From Candidatus Accumulibacter cognatus (GTDB lineage Bacteria > Pseudomonadota > Gammaproteobacteria > Burkholderiales > Rhodocyclaceae), in NCBI GenBank assembly GCA_013414765.1, contig CP058708.1, forward strand, positions 365,503 through 429,502: 64,000 nucleotides of DNA, written 5' to 3'. The notes beneath the pieces were generated by a model that was not told where the DNA came from, searched no databases, and worked only from the letters and a program-made list of their open reading frames with translations. Below are positions 321-60,057 of this stretch, piece by piece; position 1 is the stretch's first letter; every line of letters begins with the position of its first letter. The position numbers and the translations under genes are program-made.

Positions 321-342
321 GAGGTTTTTTCCTCGTTTTTCT

Positions 343-6301: not shown

Positions 6302-6352
6302 GAAGAAGTTCCTGGTACTTGTGGCGGGTAGTTCGGCGCAGTGGATTGGTTG

Positions 6353-6880
6353 CTATTCTTCGCAGGCCGCCATCGCTTCGTCGATCTCGGCGAGCAGCTT
6401 CTCCAGGAACATCAGTCGCCGCACACGGTCTGCGGTCTGTTCCAGGTCATGCCGATCGTCGAGCAGGACAGCGATTTCCTCGTAGCGTTCGCGCATGTCA
6501 CGCTGCAGACGATGGTACAAATGCTCAAGTTCGTGGTATTCGCCAGCGGCACGCGCTTCGGCAGCTGCCTCGCGCCATTCCATCTGCTCGATCAGGAAAT
6601 CTGCCGGCATCAGGGTATTGTTGTCGCTGCCGATATCGTGCGCAGCCAGATGCAGCAAATATTTCGCCCGTGTCAGGGGTTTCTTGAGCGTCTGGTAGGC
6701 TTCATTGATCCGCGTCGCCCACTGCAGCGAAAGCCGTCGTTCAGCCTCGCCGGCACTTGCAAAGCGGTCGGGATGCAACTTGGACTGGATTTCTCGGTAG
6801 CGATGGTCGAGCAGCGCTGCGTTCAGCCGAAAGGCGACCGGCAACTCGAAGAGGGTGAAGTGATCGGCGTTGAATTCCAT
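6353..6880 (-). CDS. hscB: HscB, J-domain co-chaperone
   Basis: 175 residues from the ATG at 6880. A GTG at 6904 would add eight residues (KLCCWEQ-type) not seen in the family, so I prefer 6880. The J-domain contains the essential HPD motif (in SKLHPDRF) about residue 35, followed by a C-terminal three-helix IscU-binding domain (LYHRLQRDMRERYEE). HscB brings loaded IscU to HscA and stimulates its ATPase. Confidence 0.93.
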   Translation of the reverse strand: MEFNADHFTLFELPVAFRLNAALLDHRYREIQSKLHPDRFASAGEAERRLSLQWATRINEAYQTLKKPLTRAKYLLHLAAHDIGSDNNTLMPADFLIEQMEWREAAAEARAAGEYHELEHLYHRLQRDMRERYEEIAVLLDDRHDLEQTADRVRRLMFLEKLLAEIDEAMAACEE

Positions 6881-6979
6881 TTGTTCCCAGCAGCACAGCT
6901 TCACTCAGCTCGGAGTGGTATACGCGACTTTCGCCTGCACCAACCTGCCTGTCGCTCCCCCTCCCATCTTATCTGCGAA

Positions 6980-7303
6980 TTACACGTTGAAACTTTCGCC
7001 GCAGCCGCAAGCGTCCTTGACGTTCGGGTTGTTGAAGCGGAATCCTTCGTTCAGGCCCTCTCGCGCGTAGTCGAGTTCGGTCCCGTCAAGATAGGGAAGG
7101 CTTTTTGGGTCGATCAGAACCTTGACGCCGTACGATTCAAACTCGATGTCATCCGGTCGCGCGTTATCAGCGAATTCGAGCTTATAGGCCATCCCGGAGC
7201 AGCCGCTGGTGCGCACGCCGAGGCGCAGCCCGATGCCTTTGCCGCGCTTGACCATGAAATTAGCAACGTGGCGGGCGGCCCTTTCAGAAAGCGTCACTGC
7301 CAT
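6980..7303 (-). CDS. iscA: IscA, A-type Fe-S carrier
   Basis: 107 residues, standard length. The three conserved Cys are in SGCSGMAY (residues 33-40) and the C-terminal CGCGESF. A-type carriers hold iron or clusters and pass them to apoproteins. It lies 27 bp after iscU. Confidence 0.95.
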
Positions 7304-7330
7304 GCAAAAACCTCCTGCTGTACTGGTCTG

Positions 7331-7726
7331 TTAAGCCGGGAACTGCTCGCCATGCTTTTTCTTGTAATCAGCCACCGCCGCCTTGATCGCATCCTCTGCA
7401 AGTATCGAGCAGTGGATCTTGACCGGTGGCAGAGCCAGTTCGTCGGCAATCTGAGTGTTCTTGATGTCCAGTGCCTGATCGATGGTCTTGCCCTTGACCC
7501 ATTCGGTCACCAGCGAAGAAGAAGCAATCGCCGAACCGCAGCCGTAAGTCTTGAACTTGGCGTCTTCGATGACACCGCCCTTGCCAACCTTGATCTGCAG
7601 CTTCATCACGTCACCGCAGGCGGGCGCACCGACCATGCCGGTGGCCACGCCCTCCTCTTCCTTGCCGAACGATCCGACGTTACGCGGATTTTCGTAGTGA
7701 TCCAGAACCTTGACACTATACGACAT
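7331..7726 (-). CDS. iscU: IscU, Fe-S scaffold
   Basis: 131 residues. The three ligand Cys are in APACGDVMKL, TYGCGSAIASSS and KIHCSILAED. The HscA recognition motif LPPVK immediately precedes the third Cys. IscU is the scaffold on which IscS-derived sulfur and iron are assembled. It lies 28 bp after iscS. Confidence 0.96.
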   Translation of the reverse strand: MSYSVKVLDHYENPRNVGSFGKEEEGVATGMVGAPACGDVMKLQIKVGKGGVIEDAKFKTYGCGSAIASSSLVTEWVKGKTIDQALDIKNTQIADELALPPVKIHCSILAEDAIKAAVADYKKKHGEQFPA

Positions 7727-7754
7727 GCTGTTTCTCCTTCAATACATTCATTCA

Positions 7755-8966
7755 TCAATGAGCGGCCCACTGGACCGTACTGAGGTCGACTCCGTCCTGA
7801 ACCATTTCCCACAGTGGCGAGAGTTCGCGCAATCTGCCGATCTTCTCGTGCAGGAGCTTGATCGCGTAGTCGACGTCCTCCTCGCTGGTGAAACGGCCAA
7901 GCGTGAACCGGATCGAACTGTGCGCGAGTTCGTCATCGCGACCGAGCGCTCGCAGGACATATGACGGTTCGAGAGAGGCAGAAGTACATGCCGACCCGGA
8001 CGACACGGCGAGATCCTTGATCGCCATCAGCAACGATTCGCCTTCGACGTAGGCGAAGCTGATGTTCAGGTTGTGCGGCACCCGGCGCTCCATGTCGCCA
8101 TTGACATAGACATGCTCAATGTCCGACAGACCTTTGAGCAGGCGATCACGCAGCATACGGATGCGCTCGTTCTCTGCACCCATCTCCAGGCGTGCCAGGC
8201 GAAAAGCCTCACCCATGCCGACGATCTGATGCGTTGCCAGGGTCCCGGAGCGGAAACCACGCTCGTGGCCACCGCCATGCATCTGCGCGTTCAAGCGAAC
8301 GCGCGGTTTGCGCCGCACGTACAAGGCGCCGATCCCTTTCGGGCCGTAGGTCTTGTGCGCCGAGAAGCTCATCAGATCGACCTTGAGCGCCGCGAGATCG
8401 ATTGCCACTTTGCCGGTCGCCTGCGCCGCATCGACATGCAAGATGATTCCCCTGCTGCGGCAGATCTCGCCAATCTCGCTGATCGGCTGGATGACGCCAA
8501 TTTCGTTATTGACGAACATCACCGAGGCGACGATCGTATCCGGGCGTAGTGCCGCCTTGAACACATCGAGGTCGAGCAGACCGTCGTTCCTAACGTCAAG
8601 GTAGCTGACTTCAAAACCCTGCCGCTCGAGTTCGCGGCAGGTATCGAGAACGGCCTTGTGCTCGGTCTTGACCGTCACCAGATGCTTGCCCTTGCCGGAG
8701 TAGAAATGCGCCGCTCCCTTGAGCGCCAGATTGTTCGACTCGGTCGCACCGGAGGTCCAGACAATTTCCTTGGGGTCGGCATTGACCAGTCTGGCCACTT
8801 CTGCACGCGCTTCTTCGACCGCAGCCTCGGCTTCCCAGCCGAAAGAATGTGAGCGAGAAGCTGCGTTGCCGAATTTCTCGAACAGATAAGGGATCATCTT
8901 TTCCGCCACGCGCGGATCAACCGGCGTCGTGGCGGAATAATCGAGATAGATAGGCAGTTTCAGCAT
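7755..8966 (-). CDS. iscS: IscS, cysteine desulfurase
   Basis: 403 residues, matching E. coli IscS (404). The PLP Lys is in [12 protein letters not shown] (about residue 206). The active-site Cys is in [14 protein letters not shown] (about 328), in the long flexible loop of group I desulfurases. The reaction is L-cysteine to L-alanine with sulfur kept as a persulfide for IscU, thiamine and tRNA thiolation. It is the second of two desulfurase genes in this operon. Confidence 0.96.
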
Positions 8967-44813: not shown

Positions 44814-45905
44814 CTAGTAGACCGCGACCGGGTATGAACCCAGCAGCTTCAGATAAGGCGCACGCCGAGCCAGTTCGGTGAGTGCGCTACGCACTGCCAC
44901 ATCGTCGCGGTGGCCCTCGACATCGACGAAAAAGACATACGCCCACAGCGTGTGACGTGCTGGACGTGACTCCAGCCGGGTCAGCGAAACACCGGCATCG
45001 GAAAACGGGGCCAGCAGCTTGCTGAGCGCGCCGGTCTGGTTGTGCGCCGACATGATCAGCGAGGTCTTGTCACGCCCCGATGGCCCGGCGTCGTGGCGAC
45101 CGAGAACGACGAAGCGGGTGGTATTGTTCGGTTCATCCTCGATGTTGCTGGCCAGTTCAGGCAGTCGATAACGCTCGGCAGCTGCCTGACCGGCGATTGC
45201 AGCAACCCCTGCTTCGGTCGCGGCGAGTTGCGCGGCCTGCGCGTTGCTGCCGACCGGAATGCGCTGTACATTCGGCAGCGAGCGATTCAGCCACTCGTGA
45301 CATTGCGCCAGCGACTGCGCATGTGAATAGACCTTCACCACTTCACCCAGCGAGCGCTCGTTCGACAGCAGATGCTGGTGAATGCGCAGCACCACTTCGC
45401 CACAGACCTTGAGCGGCGTCGTCAGTAGCAGGTCGAGGGTGCGTCCGACGGCACCCTCGGTCGAGTTTTCAATCGGCACCACAGCGTAGTCGGCATGACA
45501 GGATTCGACTTCGCGAAAGACATCGTCGATCGAAATCTGGGGCATCGGGCGTGCGGCATGACCAAAATGCTTGATCGCTGCGCTTTCCGAGAAGGTGCCG
45601 AGCGGTCCCAGGAAGGCAATGCCCAGCGGCTGTTCAAGCGACAGGCAAGCCGACATCACTTCCCGGAAAAACCAGGTCACGCTCTCGTTCGACAGCGGCC
45701 CTGGGTTGATCTCCTGAATCCGCTGCAGCACCTGCGCTTCACGCTCGGGCCGATAGATGAAGCCGGCCTCACCATGGCGCGCCTTGATCTCCCCGACCTG
45801 CTGCGCATAGCGGGCACGCCGGTTCAGCAAGTCCAGCAATTGCCTGTCAAGGCCATCGATCTGCTGGCGAACGAGCGCCAGTTCGCTCTGCAGGTCGCCG
45901 CTCAC
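44814..45905 (-). CDS. pheA: Chorismate mutase / prephenate dehydratase (P-protein)
   Basis: 363 residues from a GTG at 45905 (AGGA about 9 bp upstream); a TTG at 45947 is less likely. Domains in order: chorismate mutase (LVRQQIDGLDRQLLDLLNRR, residues 8-95), prephenate dehydratase (FLGPLGTFSESAA, IENSTEGAVGRTLDLL) and a C-terminal ACT domain (LESRPARHTLWAYVFF) for phenylalanine feedback. It directly follows gyrA; serC, usually between them, is missing. Confidence 0.94.
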   Translation of the reverse strand: MSGDLQSELALVRQQIDGLDRQLLDLLNRRARYAQQVGEIKARHGEAGFIYRPEREAQVLQRIQEINPGPLSNESVTWFFREVMSACLSLEQPLGIAFLGPLGTFSESAAIKHFGHAARPMPQISIDDVFREVESCHADYAVVPIENSTEGAVGRTLDLLLTTPLKVCGEVVLRIHQHLLSNERSLGEVVKVYSHAQSLAQCHEWLNRSLPNVQRIPVGSNAQAAQLAATEAGVAAIAGQAAAERYRLPELASNIEDEPNNTTRFVVLGRHDAGPSGRDKTSLIMSAHNQTGALSKLLAPFSDAGVSLTRLESRPARHTLWAYVFFVDVEGHRDDVAVRSALTELARRAPYLKLLGSYPVAVY

Positions 45906-45974
45906 CAGGCATATCCTGTGTGCAATCGCGGCCGGTCGGTCAAGCAAGGTACGCGGTCGAACATGCGGACCACC

Positions 45975-48596
45975 CTACCCCTGCTCCGGATCGGTAACGG
46001 AAAGCTCGACCGCGGCGGTGTCCTCGCCATCCGCCGGGGGCTCAACCCCTTCGACGTCGTCTTCGCTCTCGACGACCTTTTCCAGACCGGCGAGCTTCTC
46101 TCCAGCGTCGAGCGCGATCAGCGTCACTCCCTGGGTCGCGCGCCCAAGTTCGCGAATCTCGCGCACGCGCGTGCGGATCAACACGCCACCGGTGGTGATC
46201 AGCATGATCTCGTCTTCGTCACGCACCAGGCGAGCGGCAACGACCTTGCCGTTGCGTTCGCTGGCGGCAATCGCCTTGACCCCCTGCGTGCCGCGACCGG
46301 AATGACGGAAATCTGCGAGAATCGTGCGTTTGCCAAAACCGTTCTCGGTGGCCACCAGCACCGTCTGTTGATCGTTGTCAGCAACCAACAGCGACAACAC
46401 CTGTTGCTGGTCCGCGAGCCGCATGCCCCGCACGCCGCGCGCGGTACGCCCCATCGGGCGAACCTCCTCCTCGTCGAACCACACCGCTTTGCCGACGTCG
46501 GAAACCAACACCACATCCTGCAGACCATTGGTGATCTCGGCGCCGATCAGAACATCATCCTCGTCGAGGGCGACAGCGATGATTCCTGCCTTGCGAGGGT
46601 TGGAGAAGTCCGACAGCGGCGTCTTCTTGACCGTGCCGTTGGCGGTGCACATGAAGATGTAGCGATCGTCGGCGAACTCCTTGACCGGCAGGATGGCACT
46701 GATTTTCTCGCCATCCTCGAAGGGAAACAGGTTGACGATCGGCTTGCCGCGGCTGCTGCGCGTTCCCTGCGGTACCTCATAGACCTTCAGCCAGTAGACG
46801 CGCCCCCTGTTGGTGAAGCAGAGAATGAAATCGTGCGTATTGGCCACGAACAGATGGTCGACGAAATCGTCCGCCTTCATCGCTGCCGCCTGCTTGCCCC
46901 GTCCACCCCGCCGCTGTGCCCGATAGTCGGCGAGCGGCTGCGCCTTGATGTAACCGGTATGCGAAAGCGTTACCACCATGTCGGCCGGGGTGATGAAATC
47001 CTCGATGCCGAGATCCTGGGTGTGGGTGACGATCTCCGAGCGACGCCTGTCGGAGAACTGGGCACGGATGCCGGTCAATTCGTCGACGATCATCTCGGTG
47101 ATGCGCTCGGGTCGCGCCAGGATGTCCATCAGGTCAGCAATGCGCTCCAGCAGTTCGCCGTAATCGGTCACGATCTTGTCGCGTTCGAGGCCGGTCAGGC
47201 GCTGCAGGCGCAGTTCGAGGATCGCCTGTGCCTGTGCTTCCGAGAGCAGGTAGCCGTTCTCCGTCAGGCCGAATTCGCGACCCAGCCCTTCTGGGCGGGT
47301 TGCATCGAGCGCCGCCCGCCGCAGCATCTCGGCCACCGTCGGCGAAGTCCAGGGCTTGGTCATCAGCCCGCGGCGAGCATCGGCCGGCGTCGGCGCAGCC
47401 TTGATCAGGGCGATGATCTCGTCGACATTGTCGAGCGCCACCGCCAGGCCTTCCTGGATGTGCGCTCGCTCGCGTGCCTTGCGCAATTCAAAAACGGTTC
47501 GACGGGTCAACACCTCGCGCCGGTGCCAGAGAAAACATTCGAGCATCTGTTTGAGGTTGAGCAGGCGCGGCTGCCCATCGACCAAGGCAACCATGTTCAT
47601 GCCGAAGGTGTCCTGCAGTTGCGTCTGCTTGTACAGACAATTGAGCACCACTTCAGCCACTTCGCCACGCTTCAGCTCGATCACCACCCGCATGCCCGAT
47701 TTGTCGGACTCGTCGCGCAGATCGGAAATGCCTTCGATCTTCTTTTCGTTGACCAGTTCGCCGAGCCGTTCGAGCAACGTTCGCTTGTTCACCTGGTAAG
47801 GCAGTTCGTCGATGATGATCGCCTGACGATTGTTGCCCTTCTCCAGTTCCTCGAAGTGCACCTTGCCGCGCATGATGACGCGTCCCCGCCCGGTGCGATA
47901 GCCCTCGCGGACCCCGGCAAGGCCGTAGATGATGCCGGCGGTCGGAAAGTCGGGTGCCGGCAGCAGATCGATCAGATCGTCGACGCCGATCTCGGCGTTG
48001 TCAAGCAACGCGAGGCAGGAGTCGATCACTTCGCCGAGGTTGTGCGGCGGAATATTGGTCGCCATGCCGACCGCAATTCCCGACGAGCCGTTGATCAGAA
48101 GGTTCGGAATGCGCGCTGGCATGACCAGCGGCTCTTCCTCCGAGCCGTCGTAGTTAGGTCCGAAATCAACGGTTTCCTTGTCGATGTCGGCAAGCAATTC
48201 GTGCCCGATACGCGCCATGCGCACTTCGGTGTAACGCATCGCGGCAGCATTGTCGCCGTCGACCGAGCCGAAGTTGCCCTGCCCGTCGACCAGCATGTAG
48301 CGCAGGGAGAATTCCTGCGCCATGCGCACGATAGTATCATAGACTGCCGTGTCGCCATGCGGATGGTACTTACCGATGACATCGCCGACGATCCGCGCCG
48401 ATTTCTTGTACGGCTTGTTCCAGTCATTCGACAACTCATGCATGGCGTACAGCACACGCCGATGCACCGGCTTGAGGCCATCGCGTGCGTCGGGCAGCGC
48501 GCGCCCGACAATCACGCTCATCGCATAATCGAGATACGATCGACGCATCTCGTCTTCGAGACTGATCGGGAGGGTTTCTTTGGCGAAAGCTTCCAT
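45975..48596 (-). CDS. gyrA: DNA gyrase subunit A
   Basis: 873 residues. Active-site Tyr in [10 protein letters not shown] (about 121). The quinolone-resistance region reads [15 protein letters not shown]: the position equivalent to E. coli Ser83 is Thr, a common natural variant, and Asp87 is present. The C-terminal domain has GyrA-box-like motifs ([10 protein letters not shown]). It introduces negative supercoils with GyrB. Confidence 0.97.
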
Positions 48597-49083
48597 CTTC
48601 TATCCGCTGGCGACGTGACTTCGGCAGGAATGTCGTCGTCTTGTTGAAGCCTGCTATTTTAGCATGCTCCCGATTGCCCCGGACCCGGCAGAGGGGATAG
48701 CGAGTGTGAATAATTGACCTGAGTTGATCATGAACATATACTCTCGCGGACAGTTTTGGATTTTCTGTTCTCCACATATGCTTGGGATGGTTTGGAGAGC
48801 AGTTGGCAGTGCGGCCACGTTGCCCTGAAGACTTCCGGAACATTTCTGGTTGGTGGTCTATGCTCCCCTAACGGCGCGAACGCCGCCACTCACCGATCGA
48901 CGTGTGTATTCTCGCAGGTTGACCGGCTGGTTTGGACTTACGTATTAACGAAGTACGAACTTCGCTACGCCTGCAACACCCCTTCTTGGTTATCACGTTT
49001 TCAGCAAGCCTTTGGCATAGCAAGGACACCGTGCCATGGCGCGGGCAGTAATCGCTAATGCTGTGGATAGTTTTGAGGTAAAG
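48597..49083. other. Divergent intergenic region between gyrA and the MBOAT-SGNH gene
   Basis: About 490 bp without a credible gene. The gyrA promoter may use TAAAAT near 48656 (minus strand). A short palindrome CGAAGT-ACGA-ACTTCG lies near 48955. Base composition from 48700 on is less GC-rich than the genes around it, consistent with the edge of an accessory segment. Confidence 0.45.
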
Positions 49084-51618
49084 ATGCCCACAAACGCCAT
49101 TCCTTCACAACCAAACAGCCTCGACAGGCCAGGCACGATCAGGATTTTCGATTTTGCATTGGTCGGTGTCCAATTGATGTTGCTTTTGCTTCTCTTGCGC
49201 CAATTCCAAATCGAATCCGCAGCCTTCCTGCGGCTCGCCGCCCTTGCCTTCGGCGGCTTTGCCATTCATGCCTGGTTGCCCCTGCGCTACCGTTTGCCAT
49301 TCTTTCTGCTCTTGAGTTTCACAGGCATCGGGGTCGTCATGGGCTTCGAGAACGGCGCCTGGATGATCGGAATCGGTCTGCTCCTGATAGGCATCTGCCA
49401 TATCCCGGTTTCCTTTACGTTCAGAGGAGCCTTGCTGTTGCTCGTGGGGGCGCTGCTGGCGGCACAACGCGCAAAGCTCCTGCCGTTTCCCTGGTCGGAG
49501 GCAATCTGGCCAATTCTCGGCTCGATGTTCATGTTCCGGCTGATCGTATACTTCTATGACCTGCGCCACGAAAAGGTACCGGGAACGCCAGTCCAGGCTT
49601 TGGCCTATTTCTTCATGCTGCCGAATGCCTGTTTTCCCCTCTTCCCCGTGGTTGACTACAAGGCGTTTCGCCGCAGCCATTTCGACGATGATGCCTACCG
49701 TGTCTATCAGGTCGGCATCGACTGGATGGTCCGCGGGGTCATCCATCTGATCCTGTATCGGGTGATTTACTATTACTTTACGATGGCGCCCTCGGAGGTC
49801 AACACCCCGGCCGACCTGTTGAATTACCTCGTATCGAACTTCCTGCTCTACCTCCGCGTATCGGGCCTGTTTCACCTGATTATCGGCATGCTTTACCTGT
49901 TTGGTTTCCGTCTCTCGGAAACGCACAACCGCTACCTGCTGGCGACGAGCTTCACGGATTTCTGGCGGCGCATCAACATCTACTGGAAAGACTTCATGCA
50001 GAAGGTCTTCTATTACCCGGTGGTGTTCAAACTGAAAAAACTGGGGGCGACCAAGGCCCTGGTAATCGCGACGCTCTATGTTTTCGTAATGACCTGGTTC
50101 CTGCACGCCTACCAATGGTTCTGGCTGCGTGGAACGCTGCTCTTCGTGCCACAGGACATCCTCTTCTGGGCGATCCTGGGCGTTCTGGTGGTGCTCAACT
50201 CGCTCTACGAGATCAAGCACGGACGGTCGCGAAGCATTGCGGCGAAGAAGCGAACCCTGCGCGATGTCCTTCTTTCGATCGTGAAGACCTACGGCACCTT
50301 CTGGTTCATCTGTGTCCTCTGGTCTTTCTGGACTGCGGAAAGCCTGGGCGACTGGTTCTCCTTATGGGGCGCCCTACACGGCGACTTCAGCTGGCAGGTT
50401 CTGGCCTGGCCGGCCGTCGTCCTGCTGGTGGTTGCCGTCGGCTCGATCCCCAAGGAGACCTTGCGCAACATCAAGGTCTCGGCGCAGGAAGAAAGCGAGT
50501 GGATTCGCTCACGCATCGTCACTGTCGTCGCATTGATTGGACTGATTCTGATCAGTATCGAAGGGGTAGCCACCCGGATTAGCCCGGATATCGCGACGAT
50601 CGTGCATTCGCTACGTTCCGGACAGTTGAGCCGCCTTGATCAAGCCAAGCTCGAGAAAGGCTATTATGAAAACCTTCTGTCGGTAGACCGTTTCAACTCG
50701 CAGCTCTGGGAGGTCTATACCAAGAAACCCGCCAACTGGCTGGACGTCGACAATGCCAATCTGAAGCGTTTTGACGGCGGCTTTGCGCAAACGGAACTGA
50801 TCCCGTCTTTCGTTTCTCGCACCAAATACGGTGATATCACCATCAATCGGTGGGGAATGCGGGATCGTGACTACGCACTGGAACCCGCTGCCGGTGTCTT
50901 TCGTGCCGCAGTCCTCGGCGCATCTTCGGTGATGGGCTGGGGTGTAGGAGACGGTGAAACCTTTGAAGCGCTCGTGGAAGAGCGCCTGAATGCCGAGCGA
51001 CCGATCGTTGACATCGACCACTATGAATTCCTGAACTTTGGCGTTCCAGGTTATCAACCGCTGCAGCAACTCGTGGCCTTTGAGAAGGCCATGCAGTTTC
51101 GGCCGAATGCTGTGATCTACGTCGCGACCGGACGCGAGCTGTCGCGTGCCGCGGCTTACCTTACCGAGGCGGTCAGAAAGCGGATCGACATCCCCTACGA
51201 GGAGTTGCGACAGATCGTTCAGCGCTCAGGGGTCACGCCGGAGATGGAGGAAGCCGAGGCACTCAAGCGCCTGACGCCATACCGCAAGGAAATGCTGAAT
51301 TTCGTCTACGGATCGATCGCGGAGCGCGCGCGCGCCGGCGGCACCATCTCGATCCTGCTTTTCCTGCCACAGGTTACCGATGGGTCGTGGCGAGAGGAGA
51401 CGGCCGATACCCTCGCGATCGCAGCGGGTGCGGGCTTCCTGATCATTGATCTGGACGACCTCTACAAGGGCCGCGACATCAACCAGTTGCGGCTTGCCGA
51501 GTGGGATGACCATCCGAACACGCAAGGCCATCGCCTGATCGCAGAGCACCTGTACCAGAGACTTCTCGAACGACGCGACCAAGTGTTCAATACCGCTGGC
51601 ATCGGCCAAGCACAGTAG
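49084..51618 (+). CDS. MBOAT acyltransferase fused to an SGNH-hydrolase-like domain
   Basis: 844 residues from the ATG at 49084 (TTGAGGT just upstream); the frame opens at 49036. Residues 1-470 hold about 11 membrane helices. Inside them FTDFWRRINIYWKDFMQKVFYYP (given in part) and the conserved His in WFLHAYQWFWLRG match the AlgI/DltB-type MBOAT core. Residues about 600-840 look like an SGNH esterase: block I VLGASSVMGWGVG (Ser), block II NFGVPGYQP and block V DDHPNTQGHRL (Asp-His). MBOATs transfer acyl groups across the membrane; in the Dlt and alginate systems an SGNH partner (DltD, AlgX/J) does the extracytoplasmic step. Here both are one chain. The carrier-protein gene follows 28 bp later. 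Confidence 0.82.
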   Translation: MPTNAIPSQPNSLDRPGTIRIFDFALVGVQLMLLLLLLRQFQIESAAFLRLAALAFGGFAIHAWLPLRYRLPFFLLLSFTGIGVVMGFENGAWMIGIGLLLIGICHIPVSFTFRGALLLLVGALLAAQRAKLLPFPWSEAIWPILGSMFMFRLIVYFYDLRHEKVPGTPVQALAYFFMLPNACFPLFPVVDYKAFRRSHFDDDAYRVYQVGIDWMVRGVIHLILYRVIYYYFTMAPSEVNTPADLLNYLVSNFLLYLRVSGLFHLIIGMLYLFGFRLSETHNRYLLATSFTDFWRRINIYWKDFMQKVFYYPVVFKLKKLGATKALVIATLYVFVMTWFLHAYQWFWLRGTLLFVPQDILFWAILGVLVVLNSLYEIKHGRSRSIAAKKRTLRDVLLSIVKTYGTFWFICVLWSFWTAESLGDWFSLWGALHGDFSWQVLAWPAVVLLVVAVGSIPKETLRNIKVSAQEESEWIRSRIVTVVALIGLILISIEGVATRISPDIATIVHSLRSGQLSRLDQAKLEKGYYENLLSVDRFNSQLWEVYTKKPANWLDVDNANLKRFDGGFAQTELIPSFVSRTKYGDITINRWGMRDRDYALEPAAGVFRAAVLGASSVMGWGVGDGETFEALVEERLNAERPIVDIDHYEFLNFGVPGYQPLQQLVAFEKAMQFRPNAVIYVATGRELSRAAAYLTEAVRKRIDIPYEELRQIVQRSGVTPEMEEAEALKRLTPYRKEMLNFVYGSIAERARAGGTISILLFLPQVTDGSWREETADTLAIAAGAGFLIIDLDDLYKGRDINQLRLAEWDDHPNTQGHRLIAEHLYQRLLERRDQVFNTAGIGQAQ

Positions 51619-51646
51619 TTTGACAAACTAGACTAACGGGGATCAC

Positions 51647-51898
51647 ATGAGTACAGAAGAACTGAAACAGGCAATAAAGAATTACATCATCCAGGAGTTC
51701 CTGCCGGGCGAAAACCCCGAGAACGTGACCGATAACCTTCCGCTGATTAGCAGCGGGATTCTTGACTCGATTGCGACGCTCAAGCTTGTGCTCTTCATCG
51801 AGGAACGCTTCGGGATTACGCTCGAGGCGCACGAAACCGATAAGGAGAACATGGATACCCTTGCCCAGATGGTAGCCACCATCGAGGCCAAACAATAG
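51647..51898 (+). CDS. Stand-alone acyl/peptidyl carrier protein
   Basis: 83 residues. The phosphopantetheine Ser is in SSGILDSIATLKLVLF (Ser about 44; motif LDSI). The layout (IKNYIIQEFLPGE then DNLPLISSG) resembles DltC and PltL-type carriers rather than fatty-acid AcpP. It would carry the activated group from the adenylation enzyme to the dehydrogenase and the MBOAT. It ends 7 bp before the ligase start. Confidence 0.88.
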   Translation: MSTEELKQAIKNYIIQEFLPGENPENVTDNLPLISSGILDSIATLKLVLFIEERFGITLEAHETDKENMDTLAQMVATIEAKQ

Positions 51899-53138
51899 TG
51901 AATTGATGATGAGCACTCGGGCATTGCACCAGGCGTTTCTTGCCGCCGCCGAGCGTTTTCCGGAACGCATAGCCGTCGTCGAACCCGGCGATGGAGAGAT
52001 CAGCTATGGACAACTTGCCGATTTGTCGGGCCGCACGTGCGATCAACTGCGCGCACGTGGCATCGGTCGCGGTGACCGGGTTGGTCTGTACCTGCGCAAG
52101 TCAATCGATACCGTCGCCGCGATTTACGCGATCCTGCGCGCCGGCGCAGCCTATGTACCGGTTGATCCGGGTGCGCCGCCAGCTCGCAACGCATACATCA
52201 TGCACAACTGTGGGGTGAAGTTGGTGTTCAGCGAGAGCCGCGTCACAGAAAAGTTCTGCGCTGAACTCGACGCCATCGGAGCGGCACCGCAGGTGATTGC
52301 TCTCGACGACGTGTGTGCCGGACGGGCCCTGGAGCGGTGGCTCGGTACGCAACCGAGTGCCCTTCCGTCAGCGCAGGAGACAGACGCCAGCCCCGACGAT
52401 GACGATCTCGCCTATATCCTGTACACCTCAGGATCAACAGGAAAACCCAAAGGCGTGATGCTGTCGCACCAGAATGCCGTCAGTTTTGTCGACTGGTGTT
52501 CCGAGGTCTTTGAACCGCGAGAGACGGATATTTTCTCCGCGCATGCACCGTTTCATTTTGACCTCTCGATTCTTGATCTGCACGTTTCCTTGAAGCATGG
52601 TGCCGCGCTCGTGCTGATCACGGAAGATGTTGGCAAGGATCCGATGCGTCTGGCAAGAATTATCGCGGAGCACAGGATTTCGATCTGGTACTCGGCACCA
52701 TCGATTCTGGGCCTGCTCGCACAGTTCGGAAACCTCGCCAACCTCGCGTTCCCGGCTCTACGCCACGTGTTGTTCGCCGGTGAGGTTTTCCCCGTCAAGC
52801 ACCTGCGCATCCTCTGCGGTTTGTGGACGCAACCGCGATACTTCAACCTGTACGGCCCAACCGAAACGAATGTCTGCACCTTCTACGAGGTCATCACTCC
52901 GGTACCGGATGATCGCTCTGTGCCCTATCCGATCGGGCAGGTCTGCTCGCACCTGCTCGGAAAAGTAGTTGATGAGAGCGGCACGACCGTCGAGCGAGGT
53001 GCGGAAGGCGAGCTGTGCATCACGGGCCGGGGGGTCATGCAGGGTTACTGGGGACTCCCCGAGCAGACCGTGAATAGTTTCCTAGCAGCCTGTCGGACTT
53101 GGAGCCCGGGAAACCGACAAATTTTACTTTTCGGCATG

Positions 53139-53174
53139 AAAAAGGCCGGAATTTGTCGATTTTCCGGCCTTTTT
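53139..53174. terminator. Bidirectional hairpin terminator inside IS1182 copy B
   Basis: AAAAAGGCCGGA (53139-53150) pairs with TCCGGCCTTTTT (to 53174). Transcripts of the interrupted operon would meet it within 100 bp of the insertion, so downstream expression is probably reduced. Confidence 0.75.
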
Positions 53175-53195
53175 GAGGTTTTTCCTCGTTTTTCT

Positions 53196-54554
53196 CTACT
53201 GCGGGCGCAACTTGGCCATGCGCTTCAAATTCCACGCCAGGCAGACCAGCGTCCATTCCCCGGTGACCTTCTGCCAACCCCGCAAGGAAAACTGGCGAAA
53301 GCCCATGACCGACTTGATGATGCCGAAGACCGGCTCGACGGTCTGCTTGCGCAACGCATAGAGCGCTCGCCCCGCTCTGGTCTTCAAACGATGCGACATG
53401 GCCTGCACGGGTGTCGCATGCTCCGGTAGCGCGGCCGGTTCGCTATGCCGCTCCCGCCAGTCAGGATGGTGCTCGTCGCGCGCCACCGCGATCAAGGGGA
53501 CGATGCCGGCCGCCTCGCACGCCTTGATGTTCTTCTCGCTGTAGAAGCCCGTGTCGGCGATCATCCCGTGCACGGAACCCAGCCCATCGGCCTGCGCCTG
53601 GAGCGTCGCCAGCATCGGCTCGACCTGCTCCTTGTCGTTGGGGGCTTGCGTCACGCCGACCGCCACCACCAGCAGGGTCGCGGGATCAACCGCCGCCTGG
53701 GCGTTGTACGCCTGCTCGAAGCCGCCACCGGCCACCGGCATGATGCGCGATTCTTCGTCGGTCAGATTGATCTGGTCACTGTCCCGTACGCCGGGCTCGG
53801 GGGCTTTGGGCACTCTGCCCCCCCACTTCCTGCCGGTCTCTTCTTCTTTCGCCTTGCGCCGCGCCATCTTCTCGTCGTACTGCGCCTTCTCTCGCTGATA
53901 GCGCTCCTCGGCCCGCGCCGCAATCTTCGCCTTGGCCGCCGCCATCGCCACCAGCCGATCTTCGCGGCGCTTGATTTCTTCCGGCAGGCTGACGCCGTCC
54001 GGAACCTCCGCCTGATCCGCCTGTTCGGCCAGCGCGAACAGTTCCTGCACCTCCGCCTTGAGTTGCGCTTCCAGCTTTTCGATGTGGCCGTGCGAAAGCG
54101 CACGGTGGCGGGAGGCGTTGGCCTGAATCTTCGTGCCGTCAAGACAGACATTGCCCAGTTTCAGCAGCTTCATCTCCCGGGCCATCTCCAGAACCTGCAC
54201 GAACAAGTCGCTCAGTTCCTCCAGAAAACGCCGGCGGAACGTCGCCAGGCTGTCGTGATCGGGATGGCTGCCGGCGGCAATGTAGCGAAAGGCGACCGAA
54301 TCGTAGGTCGCCTGCTCCAGCCTGCGGCTGGAGAAAATACCCGTCGCGTAGCCATAGACCAGAATGGCCAGCAGCGTCGCCGGATGGTACGCCTTCGATC
54401 CCCGTCCAGCGTACTGCCGCGTCAGCTTCGACAAATCAAGCGAGTCGATCACCTCCACAATGAATCGCGCCAAATGATCCTCGTTCAACCAATCGTCGAG
54501 TGACGGCGGCAGCAGGTAGTCGGTCTTGCGATCGGTGACGATGAAATGGGACAT
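53196..54554 (-). CDS. IS1182-family DDE transposase, copy B
   Basis: 452 residues, intact and differing from the copy at 343-1701 by three residues in the charged linker (Tyr, Met and Arg here). Catalytic motifs are identical. The very high identity implies recent transposition or conversion between the two copies. Confidence 0.9.
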   Translation of the reverse strand: MSHFIVTDRKTDYLLPPSLDDWLNEDHLARFIVEVIDSLDLSKLTRQYAGRGSKAYHPATLLAILVYGYATGIFSSRRLEQATYDSVAFRYIAAGSHPDHDSLATFRRRFLEELSDLFVQVLEMAREMKLLKLGNVCLDGTKIQANASRHRALSHGHIEKLEAQLKAEVQELFALAEQADQAEVPDGVSLPEEIKRREDRLVAMAAAKAKIAARAEERYQREKAQYDEKMARRKAKEEETGRKWGGRVPKAPEPGVRDSDQINLTDEESRIMPVAGGGFEQAYNAQAAVDPATLLVVAVGVTQAPNDKEQVEPMLATLQAQADGLGSVHGMIADTGFYSEKNIKACEAAGIVPLIAVARDEHHPDWRERHSEPAALPEHATPVQAMSHRLKTRAGRALYALRKQTVEPVFGIIKSVMGFRQFSLRGWQKVTGEWTLVCLAWNLKRMAKLRPQ

Positions 54555-55021
54555 GCCGGACCTCCGTTCCTGGAACAGCTATGATTGTAGCATATTCAGC
54601 GGGCGGCAAGGGTAAAGTCCGACAGGCTGCTAGTCGATCCGCAAGGAACACGGTGGTACAAGACGGGCGACATCGTCGTCGAGGAATCCGATGGCTGCTA
54701 CATCTACCGTGGGCGGCGCGATCGTATGGTCAAACGGCGCGGCTATCGCGTCGAACTCGGCGAAATCGAAGCCGGTCTGTACAAGCATGCGCAAGTGAAG
54801 GAAGCTGCAGTCGTCTCCGTTCCCGATGAGGAAGCGGGCGTCAGGATCGTCGCACACCTGAGCTGCAAGGTGCAGACCGTACCGTCGTTGATCGAAATGA
54901 AACGCTTTTGCGGCGAGAATCTGCCCTTGTACATGATCCCGGACCGTTTCGTCTGGCAGCCGTCACTTCCCAAAACCTCGACCGACAAAATCGACTACCA
55001 GCGCCTGAAGGAGATGGCTTG

Positions 55022-56170
55022 ATGGATTTTTCTTTCTCGGAAGAGCAGCGATTGCTGCGAGACAACATCGTCAGATTCGCCAAGGGTACGCTGAACCAGA
55101 AAGTGATCGAGCGCGATCACAACCATGAGTTCTCCCGGGATCTATGGCGCAAATGCGGAGAGATCGGCATCCAGGGTTTGCCTGTTCCTGAACAGTACGG
55201 CGGTTCCAATGTCGATCCGCTGACTTGTGCGATCGCCCTGGAAGCACTTGGCTCTGCCTGCCACGATGGCGGCCTGGTGTTCTCTCTGTCGGCGCATCTG
55301 CTGGCTTGCGTCGTGCCGATCTGGCGGCACGGGACCGACGCCCAGAAGCAACGTTATCTGCCGGGATTGTGCGACGGAACTTGGATCGGATCGCATGCGA
55401 TCACCGAGCCAGGCTCGGGTTCGGACACGTTTTCGATGCGCACCCGCGCCGAAAAGGTGGACGGGGGCTGGAAGATCAACGGAACCAAGACCTTCATCTC
55501 AAATGGCCCGGTCGCAGACGTAGCAATCATCTTCGCGGTGACCGATCCTGGCAAGGGTTTCCACGGCGGGGTCAGCAGCTTCCTGGTGGATGCTGGGCAA
55601 CAGGGCCTGACGACCGGCAAGCCGTTCGCAAAGATGGGTTTGCGCACATCGCCGATCGGTGAATTGGTCTTTCAGGACATGTTCGTTCCCGACGACGCAG
55701 TGCTCGGAAAAGTAGGGGCCGGATCCGCCGTTTTCGGTACGGCCATGGATTGGGAACGTGCTCTGCTCGTCGCCGGACATGTCGGAGTGATGGAACGGCT
55801 GCTGGAAACGGCGGTCGGCTATGCGAGATCGCGCAACCAGTTCAATCAGAGCATCGGCAAGTTCCAGGCGGTCTCGCACAAGATCGCCGACATGAAGGTC
55901 CAGCTCGAAGCGGCGCGCCTGCTCGCCTATCGAGCTGCCTGGAAACTCGGCAACTCGCGTAGCGCGTCCCTCGACGCGTCTATCGGTAAGCTGTTCGTGA
56001 GCGAGTCGCTACTGCAATCCGCGCTCGACTGCGTGCAGTTGCATGGAGGCTACGGCTTCATGGTCGAGTACGAAGTCGAGCGAGTCTTGCGTGACGCCGT
56101 CGCGGGAACGATCTACTCGGGAACTTCAGAGATGCAGCGAAACATCATCTCGCGCTGGCTGGGATTGTAG
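55022..56170 (+). CDS. Acyl-CoA-dehydrogenase-like flavoenzyme (candidate carrier-bound aminoacyl dehydrogenase)
   Basis: 382 residues from the ATG at 55022, overlapping the ligase stop in TGATG. It begins MDFSFSEEQRLLRD; FAD/substrate motifs are AITEPGSGSDTFSM (about 132-145) and WKINGTKTFISNG. The C-terminal motif is IYSGTSEMQRNII: the Glu that is catalytic in short- and medium-chain enzymes is Ser. Instead a Glu is present in MDWERALLVAG (Glu245), at the helix-G position used by isovaleryl-CoA dehydrogenase. Prolyl-carrier dehydrogenases of the PltE/RedW kind belong to this branch as I recall. In context it could oxidise a prolyl thioester to pyrrolyl. Confidence 0.82.
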   Translation: MDFSFSEEQRLLRDNIVRFAKGTLNQKVIERDHNHEFSRDLWRKCGEIGIQGLPVPEQYGGSNVDPLTCAIALEALGSACHDGGLVFSLSAHLLACVVPIWRHGTDAQKQRYLPGLCDGTWIGSHAITEPGSGSDTFSMRTRAEKVDGGWKINGTKTFISNGPVADVAIIFAVTDPGKGFHGGVSSFLVDAGQQGLTTGKPFAKMGLRTSPIGELVFQDMFVPDDAVLGKVGAGSAVFGTAMDWERALLVAGHVGVMERLLETAVGYARSRNQFNQSIGKFQAVSHKIADMKVQLEAARLLAYRAAWKLGNSRSASLDASIGKLFVSESLLQSALDCVQLHGGYGFMVEYEVERVLRDAVAGTIYSGTSEMQRNIISRWLGL

Positions 56171-56206: not shown

Positions 56207-57001
56207 CAGCCGTCAGACTTAAGGTTTGGAAAACTGCCAAATTTCTTCATGCGGAATGAGAAGCCCGGAACTTGTCGACTCTCCGGCCTTGTCGAAGGTT
56301 TTCCGATCATTTTCCCTACTGTGGGCACAATTTGGCCATGCGCTTCAAGTTCCACTCCAGGCAGACCAGCGTCCACTCGTCCGTGACCTGCTTCAAACCG
56401 CGTAGCGAGAACGGGCAATAGCCCATGACCGATTCGATGGTTCCGAAGACCGGCTCGACCGTCTGCTTTCGCAATAGGCGTAGAGCGCTCGTCCCGCTGG
56501 GGTTTTCAAGCGATGCGATAGGGTCTGCAGGGTTGTCGCATTCTGCCGGTTCGCGGTGCCACTCCCGCCAGGCTGGAGGATTCTCGTCGCAAGCCACCGA
56601 GATCACCGGATCGATGCCGGCCGCCTCGCATGCATGGATGTTCTTCTCGCCGCTGCTTGATTTCTTCGGGCAGGCTGACGCCACGCCGTCTAAAACGTCG
56701 GCCTGATCGGCCTGTTCCGCCAAGGCGAAAAGTTTCCTGCAGTCCGGCCTTGAGCTGGGCTTCCCGCTGTTCGATGTGGCCGTGCGAGAGCGCCCTGGGC
56801 CTCGATGCGTTGGCTTTGAACTTCGTGCCGTCGAGGCAGACGTTACCCGGCCTGAACAGCTTTATTTCGTGGGCCATCTCCAAGCCAGGTCCTGCAGAAA
56901 CAGCTCGCTCAGTTCGTCAAGAATACGCCAGAGGAACATCGCCAGGCTGTCGTAATCGGGATGGCTTCCGGCAACAAGGTAGCAGAAGACCACCGAATTG
57001 A
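56207..57001 (-). pseudogene. Decayed relic of an IS1182-family element
   Basis: It starts with CAGCCGTCAGACTT, a degraded version of the IS1182 end, 36 bp after the dehydrogenase stop. Translations on the minus strand (56316-56723 and 56506-56883) still show KQTVEPVFGTIESVMGY and CLDGTKFKANASRPRALSHGHIE, in different frames. About 450 bp of the middle is missing near 56650, and the N-terminal third is gone beyond 57001. It is clearly older than copies A and B. Confidence 0.85.
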
Positions 57002-57252
57002 ATACCAAACCTGCCCAATCTGCGCTAACTGCCGAACCTAACGGTCATTGCAGGACAGGTAGCCACCCCGCGTATCATGAAACATTCAAAGGCACGGTCT
57101 GCTCGCCAGCCAAAGTTAGAGGCACCAGGGGTGGTGCTTGACCGAGGCATCTGAGCGATCCTGCCACGCTCTTTTCTTGGCATCGCGACGTCATCGTCTG
57201 CGATTCTTTTTTGCGCCCGAAAGCCGGGTTTTTTCACATTAATGTTGAGGCC

Positions 57253-57582
57253 ATGGATGAGCTTCCCGATTTGAGCAGACTGAGCGTTGCCGAGAAAGAT
57301 CAACTGATCCGCGATCTGTGGTCGTGGGTGCGGAGTCTGACGGTTCAAGTCACCACGCTGCAAGCGAAGGGAGATGAACTGGTAGCGCGCCTTGCGCAAA
57401 ACAGCCGCAATTCAAGCAAGCCACCGTCCTCGGATGGGCTTGCCAAGCCCCAACCCAAGTCGCTGCGCAAGGGAGGAGAGCGCCCAAGTGGCGGACAGGA
57501 GGGGCATGGTGGGCACACGCTGCAGAAAGTGGCGGTTGCAGATCACATTGAAACCCATCTGCCTCCATCGCATTGCGATGAC
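57253..57582 (+). pseudogene. IS66-family transposase (TnpC), N-terminal fragment
   Basis: 110 residues remain: MDELPDLSRLSVAEKDQLIR, a coiled coil, then RLAQNSRNSSKPPSSDGL and GGQEGHGGHTLQ, the zinc-binding N-terminus of IS66 transposases. The frame is cut by the IS3-family element at about 57583. Its C-terminus resumes at 59109, and I estimate about 200 residues (the catalytic core) are missing. Confidence 0.85.
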
Positions 57583-57828
57583 AGAGGTGGCCCCGTTTGT
57601 TTGGACAGAAAATCTGCTTTGATAAGTGGAGCCCTGCCGGTGGTGGTCAGGTGACCGGAGTTGCGCTTGGTTTTGACTTTCTGTGATTTTATCCGAACCG
57701 AATAGAGCTCGGTGGAGCTTGTGGGCGAAGGGACGCGCGGTGGAAAAGTCGCCAGACTTTTCCACCGCAAGCGGCCTGGTGCGCGACAGCGCATCGTCCA
57801 CAAATCCACGGAGCCCCTTCCTCATGCC

Positions 57829-58716
57829 CTACGCCACCGGTCGCGTGGCAGCCGCGAGTGCCGCGAAGTAGGTGGCGTCCGGCGTCTGGCCATCCAGGGA
57901 GCGATGGGGGCGTCGCTCGTTGTAGAAGCGCAGATACGTGGCCAGGTTAGCTTTCGCATCGGCAACGCGGTCATCGGCCTTGAGATACCCCTCCTCGTAC
58001 TTGACCGTCTTCCACAGTCGCTCGACAAAGACGTTGTGACGGGCTTCGCCCTCTCGCCTATCGGCTCGCGAAACTGCGCTTCGCTTGTTTTCCCGCCAGG
58101 ACCCCTTGCCGTCCCTGCTGATCCGAATACCGTGCGCCTTGATCAGACCGGTGAACTCGTCGCTGGTGAACTGGCCACCCTGATCGGTGTTGAAGATCTC
58201 CGGGCAACCATACCGGTGGAGGGCTTCGCGCACCGCTTCCCGACAGAAGTCGGTCGTCAGGGTGTTGGAGAGCCGCCAGGCGAGCACCCGCCGCGAGTAC
58301 CCGTCGATCACGGCGAACAGGTAGAGGAAGCCCCGGCGCATCGGAATGTACGTGATGTCCGCCGCCCATACCTGATTGGGCCGATCAACCACGAGGTCGC
58401 GCAGCAGATACGGATGGATTTCATCCCCCCGCTGCCGACGGGAGGTGTGGGGCTTTCGATAAAGGGCCTCGATCCCCATGCGCGCCATCAGAGTACCGAT
58501 GTGCCTGCGGCCGGCCTGGAACCCCTCGGGGCGCAGCAGATCGCGCAACATGCGGGCGCCGGCGAACGGGTGCTCGAGATGCCACGCGTCAATCCGACGC
58601 ATCAGCGCCAGATCCTCCGGCGAGACTTCGCGTGGCGTGTAGTACGCGCTCGAACGCGCCAACCCGAGGAGGGCGCACTGATGCGAGACGGGGAGCTTGT
58701 GCTTGCGGTCAATCAT
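57829..58716 (-). CDS. IS3-family transposase OrfB, with an 18-residue insertion in the catalytic core
   Basis: 295 residues. Catalytic Asp in WAADITYIP, second Asp in NTDQGGQFTS, and Glu in NVFVERLW. The family spaces the last two by 35 residues; here 53 lie between them because 18 residues (KRSAVSRADRREGEARHN, 58033-58086) are inserted. The insertion is a multiple of three and its DNA contains GGGC-GAA-GCCC and GCGAA/TTCGC hairpins. Activity is doubtful unless the loop is tolerated. Its ATG overlaps the orfA stop. Confidence 0.88.
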   Translation of the reverse strand: MIDRKHKLPVSHQCALLGLARSSAYYTPREVSPEDLALMRRIDAWHLEHPFAGARMLRDLLRPEGFQAGRRHIGTLMARMGIEALYRKPHTSRRQRGDEIHPYLLRDLVVDRPNQVWAADITYIPMRRGFLYLFAVIDGYSRRVLAWRLSNTLTTDFCREAVREALHRYGCPEIFNTDQGGQFTSDEFTGLIKAHGIRISRDGKGSWRENKRSAVSRADRREGEARHNVFVERLWKTVKYEEGYLKADDRVADAKANLATYLRFYNERRPHRSLDGQTPDATYFAALAAATRPVA

Positions 58717-59018
58717 CGTTTTGCGCTCAGCAAGCCCGCCTTGGTGAGCGCATGTTCTAAAAAATCGTTCTCCAGCGTCAGCTGTCCGATCTTGGCGTGC
58801 AGTTTCGTCAGGTCCGGATCGCTGCTTGCGGGGCTTCCGGCGTCTCCAAATACCTGAACCGCACGCTCTGTCAGTTGCCGCTTCCAGTCCGTGATCTGGT
58901 TCGGGTGAATGTCATACTGTTGTGCCCACTCCGCTAGCGTCTTGTCGCTCTTCAGCGCCGCCAGGGCCACTTGCGCCTTGAATGCCGGTGTGTGGTTCCG
59001 CCTCGTCCTTCTCGTCAT
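58713..59018 (-). CDS. IS3-family OrfA (helix-turn-helix protein)
   Basis: 101 residues from the ATG at 59018 (AGGAG upstream). RNHTPAFKAQVALAALKSD and IHPNQITDWKRQL form the DNA-binding helix-turn-helix, followed by a leucine-zipper segment (LHAKIGQLTLENDFLEHAL). It binds the element's ends. It overlaps orfB in ATGA. Confidence 0.9.
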   Translation of the reverse strand: MTRRTRRNHTPAFKAQVALAALKSDKTLAEWAQQYDIHPNQITDWKRQLTERAVQVFGDAGSPASSDPDLTKLHAKIGQLTLENDFLEHALTKAGLLSAKR

Positions 59019-59108
59019 GCTCTTGCTCCTGTTATAGCCGCTTCCGCAGCCGGTCGTGGGGGCAAGGCTACCACCTATCCTCCTGTCCGAATTTCCGGGG
59101 CCACCTCT

Positions 59109-59615
59109 CTCCAGCAGGCTTGGGCAGGCCGCCTGATCGAACTTCTGGTGGCCGCCTGCCATGAGGTTAACCAGGCGGGCGGTTCGCTACCCGTCGAACG
59201 CGTTGCGCTGTTGCGTAACCGATATACCGAAATTCTCAGCGAAGGCGAGGTCCTCAATCCGCAGGCGGAAAAATCGGGGAAGCGCGGACGAACACGACAG
59301 AGCAAGGCGACCCACCTCCTCTGGCGCTTACGCACCTATGCCGATGATGTCTGGCGCTTCGCTTCTGATCCCCACGTCCCGTTCTCCAACCACCTCGCCG
59401 AGCAAGAGGTTCGCATGCCAAAGGTCAAACAGAAGATATCCGGCGGCTTCCGCACCAGGAATGGCGCCGATGCCTTTTGCACGATCCGTTCCTACCTTGC
59501 CACCCTGCACAAGCAAGGGAGCAATCTCTTTCACGCCCTCACGCTGACTTTCCAAGGCCAGCCTCCTCAGCCTCCGTTTGGCTTGACCTACACAGCCCTT
59601 GGCTTGGGCTACTGA
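59109..59615 (+). pseudogene. IS66-family transposase (TnpC), C-terminal fragment
   Basis: In frame from 59109: LQQAWAGRLIELLVAACHEV, HVPFSNHLAEQEVRMPKVKQKISGGFRT-type end (given in part) and the final GLGY stop. The NHLAEQ motif holds the catalytic Glu of IS66. Together with 57253-57582 it is one gene with its core deleted around the IS3 insertion. Confidence 0.85.
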
Positions 59616-59724
59616 GTAGTTACCGCGAAAGGTCGTTTTCGGTATCCCCGTTGCGGTGGGTGACGACCGGACTTTCGGAAGTCCTGCTTGCGAGCTGCGC
59701 TCTCGCAGGTCAGGCGACCGCTCG

Positions 59725-60057
59725 CTATTCCGGGATGCCGCCGGCCGCGGCGTAGTCGCCTCCCGAGAGCAGGACCGCCAGTGCGTGCGCAGCGAGGAGC
59801 TTCCCCGGTGCCTCCTGCGGCCAGAAGCGGTAGTGCCCCTGCGACAGCCGCTTTTGACAGAACCAGAAGCCTTGCCCATCATAGACCAGGAGTTTCACCG
59901 CCGTGCTCCGGCGGTTGCAGAAAACGAACACGCCGCCGCTGAACGGGTCTTGGGCCAGTTTCTGCCGCACACGTCGGGCGAGACCGTCGATGCTGCAACG
60001 AAAATCCGCGGGCTCGGCAGCCACCCAGACACGCAGGTGCGCGTTCAGCGCGAGCAT
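59725..60057 (-). CDS. tnpB: IS66-family accessory protein TnpB
   Basis: 110 residues. VWVAAEPADFRCSIDGLA, GGVFVFCNRRSTAVKLLVYDGQGF and CQKRLSQGHYRFWP are the TnpB signature. It overlaps tnpA by 13 bp. No tnpC follows downstream on this strand, so it is what remains of a second IS66 element in the opposite orientation to the tnpC pieces. Confidence 0.88.
   Translation of the reverse strand: MLALNAHLRVWVAAEPADFRCSIDGLARRVRQKLAQDPFSGGVFVFCNRRSTAVKLLVYDGQGFWFCQKRLSQGHYRFWPQEAPGKLLAAHALAVLLSGGDYAAAGGIPE

Follow-up and report, generated by a model that had tools for sequence, protein, structure and literature searches.

A carrier-fed MBOAT-SGNH system predicted to build and export an oxidised prolyl group in Candidatus Accumulibacter cognatus

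In the Dlt system (DltA, DltB, DltC, DltD and DltX), a ligase-loaded carrier holds the donor group for a DltB-type membrane-bound O-acyltransferase (MBOAT) and an SGNH protein, and a tyrosine of DltX serves as the shuttle. In the pyrrole triads (PltF/PltL/PltE, PigI/PigG/PigA, RedM/RedO/RedW and AnaC/AnaD/AnaB, as we take the subunits to be named), a stand-alone prolyl adenylation enzyme is combined with a small carrier and a dehydrogenase of the acyl-CoA dehydrogenase (ACAD) type, with a halogenase in some clusters; these triads feed soluble natural-product assembly. Here, we describe a four-gene operon of Candidatus Accumulibacter cognatus, whose genome is one 5.17-Mb contig. The operon lies on the plus strand at positions 49084-56170 of the window, by which we mean the whole stretch of 64,000 nucleotides that was analysed (contig CP058708.1, positions 365,503 to 429,502). 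As an original prediction made from the sequence alone had proposed, the four genes are present at that place and encode an MBOAT and an SGNH domain in one chain, a carrier protein, an adenylation enzyme (the ligase) and an ACAD homologue. Judged by sequence comparison, it is probable that this carrier-fed MBOAT/SGNH system builds an oxidised prolyl group, most likely pyrrole-2-carboxyl, for predicted export to an acceptor outside the cytoplasm, which may be a surface glycan.

Both MBOAT/SGNH acylation and the formation of pyrroles on carriers have been described; a system that unites them, sought as the combination or by its parts, was not found in the open-licence PMC literature. The window system would be a variant of MBOAT/SGNH acylation that is neither Dlt nor a PigA/RedW equivalog. 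Unlike Dlt, it has a PltF-like pocket, an added dehydrogenase of the prolyl-carrier type, an MBOAT fused to SGNH with a candidate tyrosine in the linker, and, in some relatives, tailoring genes (halogenases, possibly others). Unlike the pyrrole triads, its usual partner is a membrane MBOAT-SGNH protein. AlmE-type lipopolysaccharide glycylation is similar in that an adenylation enzyme (AlmE, in the available part of PMC11253843) supplies an amino acid for envelope decoration. It differs in its transferase, and AlmE and its partners are not known to oxidise the amino acid. The PatA/PatB, AlgI/J/X and WssH acetyltransferases have, like the window system, an MBOAT extended by two helices and by a tyrosine segment that feeds an SGNH enzyme (PMC12148441), but their donor is acetyl-CoA and their FXYXXF motif is at the C-terminus of the MBOAT, whereas the window system has a predicted carrier-bound donor and its tyrosine in the linker to the fused SGNH domain. 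OatA-type fusions also hold a membrane acyltransferase, a shuttle tyrosine and SGNH in one chain (PMC12148441), but their AT3 domain belongs to a different membrane family and their donor is acetyl-CoA. The MBOAT/SGNH envelope acylation systems in the Discussion of the same paper transfer acetyl or D-alanyl groups.

The operon and the enzymes of the carrier-bound group

The features of the operon, from a listing of open reading frames of at least 70 aa, are as follows.

49084-51618, plus strand: MBOAT-SGNH fusion protein, 844 aa (860 aa if started at the ATG at 49036)
49084-50358, plus strand: MBOAT core, residues 1-425; predicted DltB-like fold across residues 45-425
50104-50106, plus strand: codon of His341, putative MBOAT catalytic histidine (H in 23/23 rows)
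50392-50556, plus strand: two more predicted membrane helices past the MBOAT core (residues 437-453 and 470-491)
50659-50676, plus strand: candidate acyl-shuttle motif GYYENL, residues 526-531 (Tyr528 codon 50665-50667, invariant in 23/23; predicted local distance difference test score, pLDDT, ~33)
50758-51597, plus strand: SGNH domain (Ser614 codon 50923-50925; His810 codon 51511-51513)
51647-51898, plus strand: carrier protein, 83 aa
51903-53081, plus strand: adenylation enzyme, N-terminal part, with a pocket identical to that of PltF
53082-54633, strand not assigned: insertion sequence inside the adenylation gene (transposase 53196-54554, minus strand)
54634-55022, plus strand: adenylation enzyme, C-terminal part
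55022-56170, plus strand: prolyl-carrier dehydrogenase homologue, 382 aa (Glu245 codon 55754-55756)

Translation of the fusion most likely starts at 49084; a Candidatus Accumulibacter vicinus protein is 96% identical to it across 70% of its length. The dehydrogenase gene starts inside the stop codon of the ligase gene (TGATG).

The nine pocket positions of the ligase, placed as we take the GrsA code to run, read DLLYLALVC and are identical to those of PltF. The same identity was found in 12 of the 14 ligases of the clade (window counted), L014 and L043 differing at one position; among the more distant ligases in the table, L044 and L046 show one difference and L047 and L048 several. In the 20 distant acyl ligases that came out of the same scan, the PltF pocket was never matched. 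The pocket aspartate, which presumably holds the amino group of the substrate, is present in 18/18 aligned ligases and in 0/20 acyl ligases. These controls come from L018-L040, with 20 of the 23 in the pocket table (L036-L038 gave no alignment over 300 residues) and eight in the ligase tree; the table leaves out L002, L008, L013, L017, L042, L049-L052 and L054. When compared with the PDB, the N-terminal part of the window ligase found PltF as its best single-domain match (264 bits, against 148 for DltA), with linear gramicidin synthase at about the same score when its two domains were summed. For a full-length relative from the same genus the values were 370.5 for PltF and 223.8 for DltA, gramicidin synthase being top at 435, again with two domains summed. 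In a tree of 36 rows, the MBOAT-type ligases fall in a group of 20 (support 96/94), which includes L011, whose genome has no MBOAT match, and a split with 100/100 support sets all amino-acid-type rows apart from eight acyl-CoA ligases. The available part of PMC11253843 lists PltF as an enzyme for L-Pro. The PltF-identical pocket thus suggests that the ligase activates L-proline and loads the carrier. In the carrier, the serine of GILDS is the likely phosphopantetheine site, and the first PDB matches were a peptidyl carrier protein (PCP) chain (42.4 bits) and PltL (35.2), with the D-alanyl carrier close behind (33.2).

The dehydrogenase matched PigA (439.7 bits) and RedW (422.4) best among NCBIfam models, the next family scoring 304.4. 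In the PDB, AnaB (386 bits), an L-prolyl-PCP dehydrogenase (323) and 6cxt (293) came ahead of ordinary ACADs (282 and below). Glu245 is found in 21/21 aligned rows; according to the part of PMC10849742 available, 6cxt is Bmp3, and in both AnaB and Bmp3 the residue equivalent to Glu245 is essential. The dehydrogenase tree, built from 36 sequences, separates 26 prolyl-type rows, AnaB and 5zw0 among them, from ten ordinary ACADs at 100/100, the finer branching among the prolyl-type enzymes being weakly supported. Both the clade and the conserved glutamate point to oxidation of a carrier-bound prolyl thioester.

In the window, a 1.55-kb insertion sequence (53082-54633), which has inverted repeats of 19 bases, separates the part of the ligase gene for the large domain from that for the small one. 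This element is likely a recent arrival, because 24 of the 31 matches to its transposase in this genome show 99-100% identity. Since the gene is interrupted, the pathway is probably off in this genome unless another ligase substitutes; three relatives within the genus have a full-length ligase. A second copy of the same element lies at window positions 228-1780, and the insertion sequence is probably still active, or was until recently.

The MBOAT-SGNH fusion, the halogenases and a proposed relay

The MBOAT half found no sequence match in Pfam, NCBIfam or the PDB, and we therefore used fold prediction. The predicted structure of the fusion combines a DltB fold with an SGNH fold: a DltB-like core is followed by two extra helices and by a linker that is disordered and contains an invariant tyrosine. 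His341 (23/23), Tyr528 (23/23), Ser614 (24/24), His810 (24/24) and Asn651 are invariant in the aligned rows that reach them, and Asp808 of the SGNH domain is kept in 21/23. By analogy, the linker Tyr528 is likely the counterpart of the shuttle tyrosine of DltX and PatA, and thus a candidate replacement for DltX. In a planctomycete (L015), two genes of the one cluster encode MBOAT and SGNH separately. Because donor site, candidate shuttle and acceptor enzyme stand on one chain, or are split in the planctomycete version, the system offers a test case for the tyrosine-shuttle model. We also noted one Gemmatimonadaceae genome that has MBOAT-SGNH genes on three contigs (L012, 3683-12539; L066; L067), along with two halogenase-like genes and a separate SGNH copy that lacks the tyrosine motif.

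A flavoprotein that recurs near the relatives is classed by Pfam as a flavin-dependent halogenase (PF04820; seven proteins, from L006, L011, L012 twice, L014, L044 and L046). With all loci and the window compared, halogenase-like genes were seen in six loci, L006, L011 (two), L012 (two), L014, L044 (two) and L046. Four of these (L006, L012, L014 and L046) are among the 19 distinct MBOAT-SGNH loci (L003-L010, L012, L014, L015, L017, L042, L043, L046 and L051-L054; the window and small duplicate contigs excluded, some stretches short). At L046 the gene order is carrier, ligase, dehydrogenase, halogenase, MBOAT-SGNH. The L046 and L014 halogenases were compared with the PDB: 5buk (160.3 bits) and PltA (159.8) were best for the former, and other halogenases were best for the latter (PltA 112.8). 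NCBIfam gave only below-cut-off matches for all seven proteins, with CmlS first each time. PltA dichlorinates a pyrrolyl carrier, by the title of a reference cited in the available part of PMC10849742. The halogenases beside the relatives are the strongest hint to the nature of the ring, which is therefore likely a pyrrole.

These results bear out the original prediction that the operon unites Dlt-like parts (the DltB fold) with a proline-to-pyrrole triad (the PltF pocket and the prolyl-carrier dehydrogenase clade), and its further idea, an oxidised aminoacyl group, perhaps pyrrole-2-carboxyl, made on the carrier, gains support from the pocket, the dehydrogenase clade and the halogenases. In the mechanism that we propose, the adenylation enzyme would activate L-proline and load the carrier, and the dehydrogenase would oxidise the prolyl thioester on it, to pyrrolyl if it acts like RedW or Bmp3. 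In some relatives, a flavin-dependent halogenase may then halogenate the ring on the carrier. The DltB-like MBOAT domain would take the group off the carrier via His341 and pass it to Tyr528 in the flexible linker, which would swing to the fused SGNH domain, where Ser614 and His810 may hand the group to a hydroxyl outside the membrane.

Two loci carry further genes within or beside such clusters. In L005 (Methylomonas, 4380-7953), the carrier and ligase genes are separated by those for a Rieske oxygenase and a B12 radical-SAM protein, possibly for tailoring of the carrier-bound group. L044 (3644-10046) has the triad, two halogenase-like genes and, between carrier and ligase, a 657-aa frame without a Pfam match; no MBOAT-SGNH match was seen on the stretch.

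Co-occurrence and distribution

Surveys seeded with MBOAT-SGNH, own genome counted, found it in 4/250 genomes of the order, 4/28 of the genus and 2/349 of the phylum. Genes for the carrier, the ligase and the dehydrogenase all adjoin MBOAT-SGNH in 7/7 non-self genomes from the three surveys, in G703 (L054) as two divergent pairs. The four-gene neighbourhood that the original prediction expected elsewhere, with an intact ligase, thus exists: the ligase is whole in the three relatives of the genus, and the window's own copy is the interrupted one. Within the genus, exactly the 4/28 genomes that have MBOAT-SGNH also have the dehydrogenase (E up to 1e-80). In the order, the dehydrogenase query (E up to 1e-100) found 6/250, the four MBOAT-SGNH genomes plus G352, whose locus is cut by a contig end, and G358 (L044), and the ligase query (E up to 1e-60) found 8/250, adding to these six G340 and G369, where no dehydrogenase was seen within the stretch examined. 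With the dehydrogenase as query (E up to 1e-80), 18/229 genomes of the class were found; apart from the own genome, identity above 41% was reached in G143, G153 and G214 only, and G143 (L046) is the one of these three with the MBOAT-SGNH gene.

When public genomes were searched with the ligase, 39 loci came up, of which 16 (L002-L017) are close. All four functions stand on the stretch in nine of the 16; L017, L016, L013 and L002 are cut by contig ends, and L009 and L012 have the dehydrogenase elsewhere in the genome. Genome-wide, the dehydrogenase was present in 9/9 genomes queried and an MBOAT-SGNH match in 13 of the 16. L041 is the same genome as L003 (gene lengths and scores are equal) and was counted in the survey, not as an extra lineage. 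By record titles and tree labels, the MBOAT-SGNH loci belong to Pseudomonadota, Acidobacteriota, Rhodothermota, Gemmatimonadota and Planctomycetota; a Chloroflexota locus has the triad and halogenases only. The spread is patchy, which suggests horizontal transfer of the system.

We set aside L047 (G153), L048 (G214), L044 (G358) and L065 (a second copy in G479) as other pyrrole-type clusters without an MBOAT-SGNH match on the stretch. At L065 (6546-9272), the second prolyl-type dehydrogenase and ligase pair of G479 has no MBOAT-SGNH match within 16 kb and is followed by another adenylation domain.

Full-length copies are found in named isolates, Aromatoleum anaerobium (L010), Pseudothauera rhizosphaerae (L008) and Methylomonas sp. 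SURF-2 (L005), and the system is therefore testable. It is conceivable, although we would wager slightly against it, that in five or more bacterial phyla pyrrole-2-carboxyl is assembled on a carrier of its own, with halogenation or other tailoring in some lineages, and leaves the cell by one MBOAT-tyrosine-SGNH relay that places it on surface glycans, so that heteroaromatic esters and halogenated surface polysaccharides would exist. If so, surface decoration would extend to aromatic, possibly metal-binding or halogen-bearing groups, a natural-product precursor triad would have been recruited to cell-surface chemistry, and antibiotic building-block chemistry would be coupled to envelope decoration.

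The acceptor and alternative readings

The carrier-bound group may be made as proposed and yet be placed on a small molecule or lipid, such as a secreted natural product or an amino-lipid-like compound, and not on a surface polymer. We consider this unlikely, with a real minority chance. It would fit the halogenases near the relatives, which we take to be typical of natural products, and the best NCBIfam match of the carrier, an ornithine-lipid carrier model (104 of 130 bits, and 124 of 130 for the L003 carrier). The available parts of the ornithine-lipid paper behind the model's name (PMC12493201) mention no acyl carrier protein, MBOAT or dehydrogenase. Also in favour, the triad is otherwise known from natural-product pathways in the available part of PMC10849742, and the neighbours of the operon examined in the window, gyrA on one side and insertion-sequence debris with transposases on the other, give no pointer to an acceptor. 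On the other hand, an MBOAT, an SGNH domain and a conserved tyrosine segment are the layout of polymer acylation systems (PMC12148441), and glycosyltransferase, exosortase or capsule genes surround several relatives. Next to L003/L041 are two group-1 glycosyltransferases, a pyruvyl transferase and a polysaccharide deacetylase; next to L012, a capsule-synthesis protein and a sulfotransferase; between the ligase and dehydrogenase on the L009 contig, hexapeptide transferases, MocA and DegT enzymes and a glycosyltransferase. The dehydrogenase contigs of G834 and G829 carry an exosortase and an epimerase, and an epimerase and a glycosyltransferase, respectively; L011 has a neighbouring glycosyltransferase and L054 an epimerase. 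The scan covered chosen genes only, and these sightings give no frequency; at L005, L007, L008, L010, L014, L042, L046, L051 and L053, where the scan took in one to three neighbours, there was no glycan cluster.

It is improbable, in our judgement, that the exported group is prolyl or the two-electron product, pyrroline-carboxyl, instead of pyrrole. AnaB, the closest solved relative of the dehydrogenase, reportedly stops at the two-electron oxidation, giving pyrroline-carboxyl-carrier, and for this reason a pyrroline has to be considered. In addition, no halogenase was found in the window or, within the stretches compared, in 15 of the 19 related MBOAT-SGNH loci. A halogenase acting at the same cluster in L006, L012, L014 and L046 would require an electron-rich ring, however, and in the dehydrogenase tree AnaB pairs with the halogenase-linked L044, apart from the window.

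Several other observations weigh against the reading that we favour. The dehydrogenase misses the curated cut-offs of PigA (NF053553, 439.7 of 500) and RedW (NF045652, 422.4 of 650), in which it also differs from the pyrrole triads. The exact FXYXXF motif is absent from the fusion and its relatives, which have [GS][YH]Y[ED]x[LI] in its place (tyrosine in 23/23), so that GYYENL appears only analogous to it. Neither outcome that would have told against the original prediction was seen, as the four genes co-occur in other genomes and ligase and dehydrogenase are each split from acyl-CoA enzymes at 100/100, but in the ligase tree, which holds no DltA, PltF lies on the amino-acid-type side on a long branch with no resolved position. 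Genome-wide, L002, L011 and L013 have no MBOAT-SGNH match, L002 and L013 being short contigs cut at the cluster and L011, which has the triad, not. In G358 (L044), G153 and G214, ligase and dehydrogenase are present, but no MBOAT-SGNH match was seen within the stretch examined. The system is also rare (4/250 genomes of the order).

An ordinary D-alanylation operon with an accessory dehydrogenase is highly improbable, and we rejected a Dlt identity. The predicted fold is that of DltB and the best NCBIfam matches include the DltA and DltC profiles, but neither cut-off was reached: the ligases of three intact relatives scored 289.1, 297.2 and 286.0 against TIGR01734 (cut-off 559.85; 199.9 for the N-terminal part of the window ligase), and the carrier scored 37.9 of 68 and 31.9 of 52.35 against DltC profiles. 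Moreover, PltF exceeds DltA by 116 and 147 bits and the dehydrogenase is on the prolyl-carrier side of its tree. A fatty-acyl activation and desaturation operon is scarcely credible and was also rejected: the ACAD and AMP-ligase superfamilies do contain fatty-acyl enzymes, a grouping that would have told against the original prediction, but profiles, PDB and NCBIfam rankings, pocket and trees place both enzymes with the amino-acid (prolyl) enzymes.

Directly past the operon (window 56319-60057) are a DDE transposase fragment, an rve integrase with an HTH_Tnp_1 partner (IS3-like), a DUF6444 fragment and an IS66 Orf2-like protein. On the other side, a 1050-codon open frame (45495-48647) lies on the strand opposite gyrA (45975-48596, minus) and is most likely a by-product of GC-rich coding sequence.

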